Below are positions 31,098 to 41,836 of a stretch of 64,000 nt of DNA, one piece after another (position 1 is the stretch's first letter; each line of letters begins with the position of its first letter). The stretch is taken from contig NZ_CP123228.1 of the NCBI RefSeq assembly GCF_029855045.1, positions 2,356,001 through 2,420,000 on the forward strand. Direction: 5' to 3'. A program made the position numbers and the translations under genes. This DNA is from Piscinibacter sp. XHJ-5 (GTDB lineage Bacteria; Pseudomonadota; Gammaproteobacteria; Burkholderiales; Burkholderiaceae_C). The notes below the pieces were generated by a model. It did no database searches, was not told the DNA's origin, and saw only the letters and a program-made list of their open reading frames with translations.

Positions 31098-31112
31098 TGG
31101 CACGCGGTTCGC
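31098..31112 (+). promoter_or_regulatory. Sigma-54 (-24/-12) promoter for the aldehyde dehydrogenase gene
   Basis: TGGCAC, five bases, TCGC; preceded by C and followed by G. The consensus is TGGCAC-N5-TTGC, so there is one mismatch. The GG and GC elements stand 12 bases apart as required. The start codon is 89 bases downstream of the element. A GTCCC-N5-GGGAC dyad about 120 bases further upstream may be an activator site. Confidence 0.68.
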
Positions 31113-31200
31113 GAAGCATTGCGCGGCGCCCGCGCCCCTTCGCAACGCTCCGGTCCGGCGCCTTCACTTGGCCGGGGCATGCTCATCAATGGAGACTTGC

Positions 31201-32721
31201 ATGGACATGCTGGAACCCGGCCGCTTCGGCTTCGCGGTGAATTTCAAGAAACGCTACGGCAACTACATCGGCGGCGAATGGGTCGCGCCGGCGAGCGGCG
31301 AGTACTTCGAGAACATCACGCCGGTCACCGGCAAGGCGTTCTGCGAGATCCCGCGCTCGAACGCCGAGGACGTGGAGCGCGCGCTCGATGCCGCGCACGC
31401 CGCCAAGGCCGCGTGGGGCCGCAGCTCGCCGGCCGAGCGCGCCGGCGTGCTCAACCGCATCGCCGACCGCATGGAGCAGAACCTGGAGCTGCTCGCCACC
31501 GCCGAGACCTGGGACAACGGCAAGCCGATCCGCGAGACGATGGCAGCGGACCTGCCGCTGGCCATCGACCACTTCCGCTACTTCGCCGGCTGCATCCGCG
31601 CGCAGGAAGGCTCGATCGGCGAGGTGGACCACCAGACCTTCGCCTACCACCTGCACGAGCCGCTCGGCGTCGTCGGCCAGATCATCCCGTGGAACTTCCC
31701 GCTGCTGATGGCGGTGTGGAAGCTCGCGCCGGCGCTGGCCGCCGGCAACTGCGTGGTGCTCAAGCCGGCGGAGCAGACGCCCGTGTCCATCCTCGTGCTG
31801 ATGGAGCTCATCGGCGACCTGCTGCCCAAGGGCGTGCTGAACGTCGTCAACGGCTTCGGGCTGGAGGCGGGCAAGCCGCTCGCCTCGAGCAAGCGCATCG
31901 CCAAGATCGCCTTCACCGGCGAGACGACCACCGGCCGGCTGATCATGCAGTACGCGAGCCAGAACATCATCCCGGTCACGCTGGAGCTGGGCGGCAAGTC
32001 GCCGAACATCTTCTTCGCCGACGTGATGGCCAAGGACGACGGCTTCCTCGACAAGGCGATCGAAGGCTTCGTCCTGTTCGCGCTCAACCAGGGCGAGGTG
32101 TGCACCTGCCCGTCGCGCGCGCTGATCCATGAGTCGATCTACGACCGCTTCATGGAGCGTGCGCTGAAGCGCGTGGCCGCCATCAAGCAGGGCAACCCGC
32201 TCGACAAGAGCACGATGATCGGCGCGCAGGCCTCGAACGAGCAGCTCGAGAAGATCCTGTCCTACCTCGACCTGGGCAAGCAGGAAGGCGCGCAGTGCCT
32301 GATCGGCGGCGAGCGCAACGTGCTGGGCGGCGACCTCGAGGGCGGCTACTACATCAAGCCGACCGTGTTCAAGGGCCACAACAGGATGCGCATCTTCCAG
32401 GAGGAGATCTTCGGGCCGGTGGTGTCGGTGACGACCTTCAAGGACGAGGACGAGGCATTGGCCATCGCCAACGACACGCTGTACGGACTGGGCGCCGGCG
32501 TGTGGAGCCGCGACATGAACACCGCCTTCCGCATGGGCCGCGGCATCCAGGCCGGGCGGGTGTGGACCAACTGCTACCACGCCTATCCCGCGCACGCGGC
32601 CTTCGGCGGCTACAAGCAGAGCGGCATCGGTCGCGAGACGCACAAGATGATGCTCGACCACTACCAGCAGACCAAGAACCTGCTGGTGAGCTACAGCGAG
32701 CAGCCGCTGGGCTTCTTCTGA
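31201..32721 (+). CDS. NAD-dependent aldehyde dehydrogenase (ExaC/AldB type)
   Basis: A 506-residue aldehyde dehydrogenase. Conserved sites are the [20 protein letters not shown] segment, KPAEQTPVS, the catalytic Glu in LELGGKSPN, and the nucleophilic Cys in [14 protein letters not shown], followed by [10 protein letters not shown]. The double Cys around the nucleophile and the overall sequence are those of acetaldehyde dehydrogenases such as ExaC and AldB. It oxidises the aldehyde made by the quinoprotein alcohol dehydrogenase to the acid. The start at 31201 follows GGAGA by five bases. A sigma-54 promoter precedes it and a DUF779 gene follows. Confidence 0.95.
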
Positions 32722-32748
32722 ACCACCCCCCGCTCTTCGGAGCTTCGC

Positions 32749-39137: not shown

Positions 39138-39670
39138 TCGCCGCGGCCTCGTTCGACGCGCGGCAGGAGAGCGCGCGACTGGACGGCCTCGACGTGCTCG
39201 ATGCCTGCCATCGGCAGACGCTGTTCACCCTCGGCAAGCTGGCGGCGCTGGTCTCGCGCCTGCAGCATCTCGGCATCGACGAGGAAGCGCGCGCGATGGC
39301 AGCGGACGTCATCCGCCATTTCTCCACGACGGCGCGCCACCATCATGAAGACGAGGAGCGGCACGTCTTTCCTGCGCTGCTCGCCGGCGGCGAGCCGCAG
39401 GTGACCGACGCGGTGAGCCGCCTGCAGCAGGACCACCGCTGGCTCGAGGAAGACTGGAAGGCCCTGCTGCCGCAGCTCGACGCGATCGCGTGCGGGCAGT
39501 CATGGTTCGACGTCGACACATTGCGCGAGGGCGTGGAGATCTTCATCGCGCTGTCGCACGACCACATCGCGCTGGAAGAGTCGCTCATCTACCCGCAGGC
39601 GCGGGCGCGGATGAGCGGTGCGCAGCGGCGCGAGGCCGGCCGCGAGATGGCGGCACGGCGCCGCACCTGA
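39134..39670 (+). CDS. Hemerythrin HHE domain protein
   Basis: A 178-residue four-helix protein with the non-haem diiron set of hemerythrin-like proteins: His in VLDACHRQTLF, HHHEDEERHVFPALL, HRWLEEDW and HDHIALEESLIYP. Such proteins bind oxygen, protect or deliver iron, or sense oxygen and NO. Its ATG lies within the end of the upstream small membrane-protein gene. The FNR-like box at 38860 fits an oxygen-linked role. It is convergent with the PQQ alcohol dehydrogenase gene. Confidence 0.85.
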   Translation: MIAAASFDARQESARLDGLDVLDACHRQTLFTLGKLAALVSRLQHLGIDEEARAMAADVIRHFSTTARHHHEDEERHVFPALLAGGEPQVTDAVSRLQQDHRWLEEDWKALLPQLDAIACGQSWFDVDTLREGVEIFIALSHDHIALEESLIYPQARARMSGAQRREAGREMAARRRT

Positions 39671-39706
39671 GGCCGGCCCGCGGCGGCATGCCGCCGCGGT
39701 TCTCGC

Positions 39707-41452
39707 TCAACGCTGCGCCGTCGGCAGCTTGAACACCCACACCATGCCGCCCTGCTCGAGGTAGTTGACCTTCTTGGCGACGTCGCCGCCCCACAGCGGC
39801 ACCGCACCACCCCATCCCGAGACGACGCTCACGTACTGCTCGCCCTTGTGCATCCAGGTGAGGGGCGGGGCCACCACGCCGGAGCCGGTCTGGAACTCCC
39901 ACACCACCTTGCCGGTGCGTGCGTCGGCGGCCTTCAGGTAGCCCTCGGGCGTGCCCCAGAACACCAGGTTGCCGCCGGTGGCGAGCACGCCGCCCCACAG
40001 CGGCGCGCCATTCTTCACCTCCCAGACGATCTTGCCGGCCTTCGGATCGATGGCGCGCAGCGCGCCGATGTGGTCGTCCTGGACCGTCTTGATGGTGAAC
40101 CCGGCGCCGAGGTAGGCCGCGCCCTTCTTGTAGGCGATGGGCTCGTTCCAGATCTCCATGGCCCACTCGTTGGCCGGCACGTAGAACAGATGGGTGTCGG
40201 GGCTGTAGGCCATCGGCATCTGGTTCTTGCCGCCGAGGAAGGAGGGCGCCGACACCACCGGCTTGCCCTTGCCCTCGGGCGCCGAGGTGGGGTCGCCCGG
40301 GCGGTTCTCGGGGATGAAGTTCGGCCGGCCGGTCTTCAGGTCGATGCCGCTCGCCCAGGTGATCTTGCGCACGAAGGGAAACGCATTGAGCAGCTGGCCC
40401 GTGCGCGCGTCGTTGACGTAGAAGAAGCCGTTGCGATCGGCCTTGCCGCCGACGCGCCGGCCGCCGAGGTCGAAGGTGACGAACTCGTTGACGCCGTCGA
40501 AGTCCCAGCCGTCGTTGGGCGTGTTCTGGTAGTGCCAGACGATCTTGCCGGTCTTGACGTCGATCGCGACGGTGGAGCACGAGTAGAGGTTGTCGCCCTT
40601 GCGCAGGTGGCTGTTCCAGGGCGCCGGGTTGCCGGTGCCGAAGTAGGCCAGTCCGGTCTGCGGATCGTAGGTGCCTCCCAGCCAGGTGGCGGCGCCGCCG
40701 GTCTTCCACAGATCGCCCGGCCACGACCGGTTGGTCGTGCCCGACACGCCGTTCTCCTTCGCGTTGCCCTCGGCATCGTAGGTGTAGCCCATGTGGCCTT
40801 CGACGGTGGGCCGGCTCCACACGAGGCGGCCGGTCTTCGCGTCGCGCGCTTCCACGCGGCCCACCACGCCGAACTCGCCGCCCGACACGCCGGTCAGCAC
40901 CAGGCCGCCGGCGATGATGGGCGCGGCGGTGCTGGAGTAGCCCGCGGCGTAGTCGTCGATCTTCTCCTTCCACTCGACGTCGCCGGTCTCCTGGTTCAGC
41001 GCGACGAGCTGCGCGTCCAGCGTGCTGAAGATCACCAGGTTGTCATAGAGCGCCGCGCCGCGGTTGACGACGTCGCAGCAGGGCATGATGCCCTCGGGCA
41101 GGCGGTGCTCGTACTTCCACAGCTTCTTGCCGGTGGCCGCATCGAGCGCGAACAGGCGCGAGTACGAGGCGGTGACGAACATCTTGCCGTTGTGCACCAC
41201 CGGCTGCGACTCCTGGCCGCGCTGCTTCTCGCCCCCGAAGGAGAACGCCCACGCCGGCGCAAGCTGCTTCACGTTGGTCGTGTTGACCTGCTTCAGCGGC
41301 GAGAAGCGCTGGCCCTGGGTGCCCAGCCCCCACGTCAGCACCTCGGCGCCGTTGCCGGGGCTGCCCTGAAGCATTCGATCGGTGACCGCGGCATGGCTCG
41401 CGATGGAGGCGCAGCTCATCGCGACAAGGGTGGGCAGTAGCTTGGCTCGCAT
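39707..41452 (-). CDS. PQQ-dependent alcohol dehydrogenase, lanthanide-type signature
   Basis: A 581-residue periplasmic quinoprotein with signal peptide (to about SHA-AVT), the eight-bladed propeller, and the vicinal disulphide C125-C126 (MPCCDV) that packs against PQQ. The catalytic base is D317 in [11 protein letters not shown], and D319 stands two residues further on. In lanthanide-dependent enzymes (XoxF, ExaF, PedH) this +2 position is Asp, while calcium enzymes have Ala or Ser, so a lanthanide cofactor is predicted. No C-terminal cytochrome domain is present (type I). The start follows GGAGA and a sigma-54 promoter lies 78 bases upstream. Alcohol range is not predictable; the island (ExaC-type ALDH, PedF) suggests short-chain or aromatic primary alcohols. 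Confidence 0.94.
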
Positions 41453-41836
41453 GGGAATGTCTCCTCGTGTGGACGGACGCGCGCGGCAGGGTCTGTCCGC
41501 TGGACAACGCGTCGCTGGGTGCCGGAAGCGCAAGCGATGTGCCAATGCAGGTAGGGCCCCGCGCGAGGCCCGGCTCCATGGGTTAACCCCTGCGGTGCGA
41601 AGTCGCGGCGGCGCGCGGCTGTGTCGCGACGGCGCATCCAGGTGTCGCTGCGCCAGGCTGACGCAGCGCGGGCGCAGCCGTTCGCCGTCTCTTCGGCCAC
41701 CGAACGGCCTTGCCTCACCGCAACTCCTCGGACGTCCGACAACCGGGGGGAAGCCCGGCCTTTCCGGGTAACCCCGGTGCTTGTCAGCTTGGCGTCAGGC
41801 GTAAGGTCGCGACCCTGACTTGCGCAAGGGAGAGTG
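41453..41836. other. 384-base control region between alcohol dehydrogenase and the small HTH gene
   Basis: Holds the divergent promoters. Seen in it are the sigma-54 element of the alcohol dehydrogenase (41530-41545), a perfect palindrome GGGTTAACCC at 41580-41589, a related GGGTAACCCC near 41767, a GTCGCGAC palindrome, and a nested inverted repeat at 41743-41777 (CCGGGG...CCCCGG enclosing CCCGG...CCGGG). No open frame with coding character was recognised. Confidence 0.5.
41530..41545 (-). promoter_or_regulatory. Sigma-54 (-24/-12) promoter for the PQQ alcohol dehydrogenase
   Basis: On the minus strand TTGGCAC, ATCGC, TTGC: a full match to TGGCAC-N5-TTGC with the preferred pyrimidine before it. 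GG and GC are twelve bases apart. The transcription start is expected about 65 bases before the ATG at 41452. Confidence 0.8.

Follow-up and report, generated by a model that had tools for sequence, protein, structure and literature searches.

Genetic organization of the island

The 64-kb stretch of DNA analysed here, referred to as the window, corresponds to bases 2356001-2420000 of the 6.65-Mb single-contig genome of Piscinibacter sp. XHJ-5 and contains an island of genes for alcohol oxidation dependent on pyrroloquinoline quinone (PQQ). Four of its operons, starting with exaC, pedF, pqqA and the alcohol dehydrogenase gene adh, are preceded by sigma-54-type -24/-12 promoter elements and are likely to be controlled by one activator encoded among them. 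The gene names proposed in a previous sequence-only reading of the region were borne out by profile searches for ExaC (NF050026), PedF (TIGR04494), PqqA, PqqB and the PQQ alcohol dehydrogenase (TIGR03075). The genes are as follows.

31201-32721, + strand: exaC, acetaldehyde dehydrogenase (NF050026, 974 bits against a cut-off of 900, scored on the longer open reading frame from 31072)
32798-33193, + strand: DUF779 protein (PF05610)
33225-34052, - strand: PedG-like periplasmic binding-protein-like partner (weak SBP_bac_3 match, under its cut-off)
34046-34552, - strand: pedF, cytochrome c-550, the electron acceptor (TIGR04494, 206.5 bits against 122)
34769-36778, + strand: sigma-54 activator of the AcoR type (GAF, weak PAS, AAA+ sigma-54 domain, Fis-type helix-turn-helix)
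36999-37073, + strand: pqqA (TIGR02107)
37093-38016, + strand: pqqB (TIGR02108, 413.5 bits against 245)
38112-38837, + strand: pqqC (73% and 60% identity to stretches in two further pqq clusters of this genome)
39707-41452, - strand: adh, PQQ alcohol dehydrogenase, PedH-like, probably of the lanthanide type (TIGR03075, 747 bits)

Sigma-54 promoter elements and their recurrence in relatives

All four near-consensus elements announced by the sequence-only reading are present, each with at most one mismatch to TGGCAC-N5-TTGC and with GG and GC 12 bases apart. The positions given for exaC and pedF were exact, while the pqqA element starts at 36930 rather than 36931 and the adh element ends at 41544 rather than 41545.

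31098-31112, + strand: exaC element, TGGCACGCGGTTCGC, 1 mismatch
34585-34599, - strand: pedF element, TGGCATATCGCTTGC, 1 mismatch
36930-36944, + strand: pqqA element, CGGCACACCTCTTGC, 1 mismatch
41530-41544, - strand: adh element, TGGCACATCGCTTGC, no mismatch, a perfect match

A scan of the genome, proposed in the same reading as a way of finding a cluster of such sites, revealed no clustering of sites as such: 429 sites with at most one mismatch were counted in the whole genome, against 422 for the same pattern read backwards, and the window showed no enrichment either (61 sites with at most two mismatches against 77.6 expected). As the genome frequency hardly differs from that of the reversed control, the motif alone proves nothing. 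What departs from chance is the position of the elements at gene starts. The four sense-strand upstream stretches (110-300 bp) would be expected to contain 0.014-0.039 sites at the genome frequency, and four were seen (Poisson p of 2e-9 to 9e-8, the motif being the standard consensus and the four genes those chosen in the sequence-only reading).

The same gene starts were then inspected in a first set of relatives, consisting of 42 loci around pedF relatives and 10 around relatives of the activator; the counts refer to placeable upstream regions, the window included, and to elements with at most one mismatch. An element was found upstream of pedF in 45 of 49 cases (5 in the antisense control; one of the 45, in L035, lies inside pedF itself), of exaC in 7 of 7 (control 0), of adh in 11 of 14 (control 1), of pqqA in 4 of 7 (control 1), each time as a CGGCAC variant, and of pqqB or PqqB-like genes in 10 of 24 (control 1). 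In L043 and L044, which account for two of the three misses at adh, this gene lies behind exaC and the DUF779 gene, whose promoter has a perfect element. No element was found in this set before the binding-protein gene (SBP, 0/47), the DUF779 gene (0/6) or the hemerythrin gene (0/1). Sigma-54-dependent autoregulation of the activator gene was likewise considered and found to be unsupported, with an element in just 3 of 42 activator upstreams.

A second, larger set was assembled for adh. The dehydrogenase was found at E<=1e-200 in 58 of 299 family genomes, from which 57 upstream sequences were taken (window excluded) and searched for the pattern [TC]GG[CT]A[CT]-N5-T[TC]GC; 53 of them come from genomes with an activator match at E<=1e-150. 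Among these 53, the element was present in 48 (antisense 2), the enhancer palindrome described below in 44 (p<=0.02) and both in 41. Two upstream sequences of the first set occur twice (L009 is identical to L020, and L011 to L025) and were counted both times in the tallies of promoter recurrence and of palindrome scores of at least 10, whereas near-duplicates were pruned for the motif search, the matrix and the analysis of helical phasing. Much of the arrangement of the island is common to many related bacteria.

A common enhancer palindrome

A palindrome of the form TGTTCCA-N3-TGGAACA (width 19) was found separately in 40 pedF upstreams and in 18 exaC and adh upstreams, the window being part of both sets, with log-likelihoods of 254.8 (shuffled 54.9) and 121.2 (shuffled 36.8), respectively. 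At widths other than 19, the palindromic search returned motifs that were different or out of register, and when the 'pqq-like' set, made of 19 upstream sequences of pqqB or PqqB-like genes, was searched by itself, every width gave other motifs. A matrix was trained on 39 pedF upstreams with the window left out. When every position of the 64-kb window was scored with it, the three highest values fell upstream of pedF, pqqA and adh. These upstream activating sequences (UAS) and the weaker candidates are listed below, distances being those from the centre of the palindrome to the -24 element.

34662-34680: pedF enhancer palindrome (UAS), score 16.7, the best in the window, centre 72 bp upstream
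36850-36868: pqqA enhancer palindrome (UAS), score 14.3, second in the window, centre 71 bp upstream
41648-41666: adh enhancer palindrome (UAS), score 10.9, third in the window, centre 113 bp upstream
41619-41637: second, weaker adh enhancer candidate, score 5.8, centre 84 bp upstream
30974-30992: weak exaC enhancer candidate, CTGTCCCACTGCGGGACGC, score 5.2 (p 0.06 against shuffles, approximately rank 19), centre 115 bp upstream

An upstream enhancer for an AAA+ activator is therefore clear at pedF, pqqA and adh and weak at exaC. The matrix means of the pqq-like, exaC and adh sets exceeded those of 200 out of 200 shuffles, and scores of at least 10, reached by 1.6% of 2677 control tiles, were obtained for 13 of 19 pqq-like, 5 of 7 exaC and 10 of 11 adh upstreams, for 44 of 52 in the second adh set, and for 44 of 44 pedF upstreams, which are mostly the training set of the matrix. 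The form of the palindrome, TGT-N11-ACA, fits the TGT-N10-12-ACA palindromes that PMC6615313 describes for many sigma-54 activators.

A degenerate form, TGYNYC-N5-GRNRCA, composed after the sites of the window had been seen, occurs at 89 places in the genome (control 54). The island holds four of these, adh being preceded by two, and each of the four, at three promoters, has a -24/-12 element nearby; the degenerate palindrome is absent at exaC. Among 45 other places listed, one has an element with at most one mismatch within 15-190 bp, at 19 bp, and five more have a two-mismatch element. A second motif, GGGTTAACCC, appeared in the exaC and adh set at widths 16, 18 and 22; its core is present in 2 of the 7 exaC upstreams, where 0.14 were expected, and in 4 of the 11 adh upstreams, where 0.26 were expected, but in a single one of the 57 sequences of the larger adh set.

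Helical phasing of enhancers and promoters

The distance between the palindrome centre and the -24 element was measured for sites scoring at least 10, distances under 30 bp being left out. The spacings are periodic for adh (n=41, period 10.60, R=0.65) and for the pqq-like and exaC upstreams taken together (n=16, period 10.85, R=0.82), with none of 2000 jitters as high in either case, as well as for pedF (n=34, period 11.15, R=0.62, p 0.0005); all spacings pooled (n=99) gave a period of 10.95 and an R of 0.49. The centres in the window, at -72 for pedF, -71 for pqqA, -113 for adh and -115 for exaC, form two pairs about four turns apart. The spacing between enhancer and promoter thus follows the DNA helix, and all four sites of the window are in phase.

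The activator and its association with the dehydrogenase

The gene at 34769-36778 contains the sole match to a sigma-54 activator domain in the window, as the sequence-only reading had stated, among 17 such matches in the genome, 11 of which are strong (E of 4e-62 or better). Two copies of rpoN are present in the genome. The activator carries the GAFTGA, Walker and FLDEIGD motifs, and its GAF domain, sigma-54 interaction domain with GAFTGA and Fis helix-turn-helix identify it as being of the AcoR type. Among the matches listed (25 of 28 models), no named NCBIfam equivalog (DhaR, PrdR and others) reached its cut-off; the solved structure 4lrx, a region of DhaR, is similar to the N-terminus of the activator. 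The helix-turn-helix is nearly invariant among close orthologues and differs from the one in the AcoR paralogue that this genome also encodes. The palindrome differs slightly between close and distant orthologues of the activator (Fisher 0.046, one base), a drift that was not relied on.

In 30 of the 42 loci around pedF relatives, pedF and the activator gene are arranged head to head. An activator match at E<=1e-150 was obtained for 54 of the 58 dehydrogenase-bearing genomes versus 37 of the 241 that lack the dehydrogenase (Fisher 7e-30, a value computed on related genomes, which are not independent). The four exceptions were considered as natural activator knock-outs and rejected as such, because three contain the activator as a split match (cut-off 1e-90) and the genome of the fourth is 65% complete. 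Once split matches are counted, the activator is present in 57 of the 58 dehydrogenase genomes, the 1e-90 cut-off having been applied to these genomes only. The adh upstreams of the four seemingly activator-less genomes have the -24/-12 element in 4 of 4 cases and the enhancer (p<=0.02) in 2 of 4. In G279, G381 and G423 (L118-L120 and L124-L126), the match breaks in two near residues 305-330, ahead of the sigma-54 domain, and the open frames of 790-812 amino acids suggest an insertion in the linker of the activator.

Type of the dehydrogenase and neighbouring genes

The closest solved structures to the adh product are those of PedH (6zcv and 6zcw). Its motif GWDFDGVNE is that of 6zcv, as opposed to AWDFSGNNE in the calcium-type ExaA (1flg), and the aspartate of WDFD, a serine in calcium-type enzymes, is linked with lanthanide use according to PMC5487730. 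The enzyme thus combines the TIGR03075 family match with WDFD rather than WDFS, both marks of the PedH/ExaF lanthanide type. With PedH as the nearest structure and the lanthanide-linked aspartate in place, the enzyme served by the island is probably of the lanthanide type.

The DUF779 gene, which also adjoins exaC in L006, L020, L029, L043 and L044, is probably part of the exaC operon. The PedG-like gene overlaps the 3' end of pedF; its homologue is next to pedF in most relatives and precedes it in L046-L051. A hemerythrin-domain protein is encoded at 39134-39670, between pqqC and adh, with no match above 80 bits in the loci of the relatives. A larger open reading frame at 38102-38863, in a frame other than that of pqqC, has no family match.

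Two FNR/ANR-like boxes (TTGAY-N4-RTCAA), at 34688-34701 and 38860-38873, are the sole ones in the window, where 0.03 are expected. One is located between pedF and the activator gene, the other before a short open reading frame and the hemerythrin gene. Of the 44 pedF upstreams (that of the window included), 3 have such a box, as do 3 of the 2560 tiles, among which the pedF upstreams of the relatives are counted. An oxygen input is possible on the basis of these boxes.

The pqq operon and its relatives

Only 8 of the 19 pqq-like upstreams precede a true PqqB gene (at least 55% identity). Five of these 8 score at least 10, namely those of the window (14.3), L015 (20.2), L032 (12.6), and L009 and L020 (the same sequence, 10.5), and three score lower (L030 9.4, L035 4.7 and L040 -2.0). 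The gene behind the other 11, 8 of which score at least 10, shows an identity of approximately 36-51%. In L012 (5859-7459), the PqqB-like gene overlaps a gene whose product scores over the cut-off of TIGR03864, the family of ATP-binding proteins of an ABC transporter assigned to the 'PQQ-dependent alcohol dehydrogenase system'. This transporter operon adjoins the activator and is preceded by a palindrome with a score of 12.4 and by a CGGCAC element with 1 mismatch. The neighbour of the activator is thus probably a PqqB-like/ABC-transporter operon in many relatives, and not pqqABC as in the window. The membership of pqqA rests on the strong site of the window itself and on a few true relatives.

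No match to pqqD or pqqE was found in the window, whereas both match beyond pqqC in L020, L030, L032, L036 and L040. Two further pqq clusters, both with pqqE, are located elsewhere in the genome (L128 and L129), one of them adjoining a membrane-bound quinoprotein dehydrogenase of the glucose type. As pqqD and pqqE are unmatched in the window and pqqE-containing clusters exist elsewhere, the island may boost part of the pathway, with PqqD and PqqE being supplied by the other clusters. Neither of these two clusters was counted as a member of the regulon: L128 contains no -24/-12 element in 11 kb, and the single element of L129, with 1 mismatch, stands 3.1 kb ahead of pqqA and comes with a palindrome scoring 8.6.

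A probable single switch and its alternatives

The promoters, the enhancers, their phasing, their recurrence and the co-occurrence of activator and dehydrogenase are established by computation. The sequence-only reading had proposed that the four operons form one regulon, and the recurrence of the promoters, the enhancer learnt without the window, the helical phasing and the co-occurrence all support this; from them we infer the switch itself, that is, the binding of the activator to the enhancers, the use of RpoN and the inducer. All four operons are likely to be under the control of one AcoR-type sigma-54 activator, exaC being the weakest member. The activator would use its N-terminal GAF region to sense a small molecule, an alcohol or an aldehyde being the likeliest candidates, bind TGTTCCA-N3-TGGAACA about 70-115 bp upstream of the four -24/-12 promoters and drive sigma-54 RNA polymerase at each of them. 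The predicted outputs are alcohol oxidation (adh), electron transfer (pedF and its partner), the cofactor (pqqABC) and the removal of acetaldehyde (exaC and the DUF779 gene).

Several observations weigh against this reading. The pedF spacings are poorly phased at 10.5 bp (R=0.30), and in 6 of 44 pedF upstreams (L013, L014, L019, L024, L034 and L037) the best palindrome is only 16-18 bp from the -24 element, which is too close for ordinary looping, with no other site scoring at least 7 within 260 bp. The shared ancestry of the relatives is lessened but not removed by the pruning of near-duplicates. The pqqA promoters have CGGCA instead of TGGCA, the true-pqqB upstreams of L035 and L040 lack the enhancer, and 11 of the 19 pqq-like upstreams precede PqqB-like genes, two of which were tested and found to be below the PqqB cut-off; this examination of the pqq set slightly lowered our confidence in a single activator. 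Finally, the exaC enhancer is weak in the window, and the genome encodes 10 other strong sigma-54 activators, one of them an AcoR paralogue.

That the elements are chance -24/-12 look-alikes in GC-rich DNA is hardly conceivable: the consensus is enriched neither in the window nor in the genome, as such an origin would have it, but the elements stand at gene starts, have enhancers and recur at the same gene starts in relatives, and chance matches were rejected on account of this position and recurrence. It is unlikely, although it deserves the most serious consideration among the alternatives, that the activator controls only pedF, pqqABC and adh, the sigma-54 promoter of exaC being under another activator or subject to weak residual binding. 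The score of just 5.2 at exaC in the window and the lack of the degenerate palindrome there are in keeping with such a division, whereas 5 of the 6 exaC upstreams of relatives score at least 10, including that of the same-genus L020 (17.0), and the weak site is in helical phase with the others (-115 versus -113, -72 and -71). Still less probable is that the promoters are sigma-54-dependent while the palindrome is bound by a repressor, a response regulator or another of the 10 further activators. The binding of the palindrome by the activator is a prediction, and the LuxR-type regulator acting with sigma-54 at exaA of Azospirillum, cited in PMC6115532, sets a precedent for another binder; against this, palindromes of the TGT-N10-12-ACA kind are known for many sigma-54 activators (PMC6615313), and the activator gene is both head to head with pedF in most loci and associated with adh across genomes.

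Control by one activator would tie the synthesis of the cofactor to the demand of the enzyme through a single signal, and would make the activator a candidate one-component sensor of alcohols or aldehydes. The analysis provides a testable regulatory map (regulator, enhancer, promoters and targets) of PQQ/lanthanide alcohol oxidation for a large group of environmental bacteria, and the phased spacing across dozens of natural promoters constitutes a data set on enhancer-phase constraints at sigma-54 promoters.

Comparison with known systems

The island activator shares its layout, GAF followed by a sigma-54 AAA+ domain and a Fis helix-turn-helix, with the AcoR/DhaR-type activators. These control acetoin or dihydroxyacetone genes, as opposed to the alcohol-oxidation targets predicted here. 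BmoR of Thauera butanivorans, to which it was likened by description, is also an alcohol-responsive sigma-54 activator with an N-terminal sensing domain, an enhancer and a -24/-12 promoter (PMC8899819), and controls an alkane monooxygenase according to PMC6366067.

The ped/exa regulon of Pseudomonas, as presented in PMC12997753, is composed of the same parts: a quinoprotein dehydrogenase (PedE/PedH/ExaA), cytochrome c-550 (PedF/ExaB), a PedG-like protein, an ExaC-type aldehyde dehydrogenase (PedI/ExaC) and the pqq operon. The regulators named for it in PMC12997753 and PMC6115532 include AgmR, a hybrid kinase, ErdR and PedS2/PedR2, whereas the island encodes an AcoR-type sigma-54 activator. The exaA gene of Azospirillum brasilense Sp7, as cited in PMC6115532, is likewise a sigma-54-dependent gene for a PQQ alcohol dehydrogenase, but its activator is a LuxR-type response regulator, unlike the AcoR type found here. 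We lean towards the view that many Burkholderiales may have replaced the multi-layer control of the Pseudomonas type with one self-contained sigma-54 switch, in which a single ligand-sensing activator would govern the lanthanide-type dehydrogenase, its electron acceptor, the cofactor (or the PqqB-like/ABC-transporter operon) and the removal of the toxic product from enhancers on one face of the helix, at spacings differing by whole turns. Searches of open-access papers brought up no description of a PQQ alcohol-oxidation regulon headed by an AcoR-type sigma-54 activator, most subscription papers lying outside this coverage. Both halves of the system are known, and it is their combination that is new.

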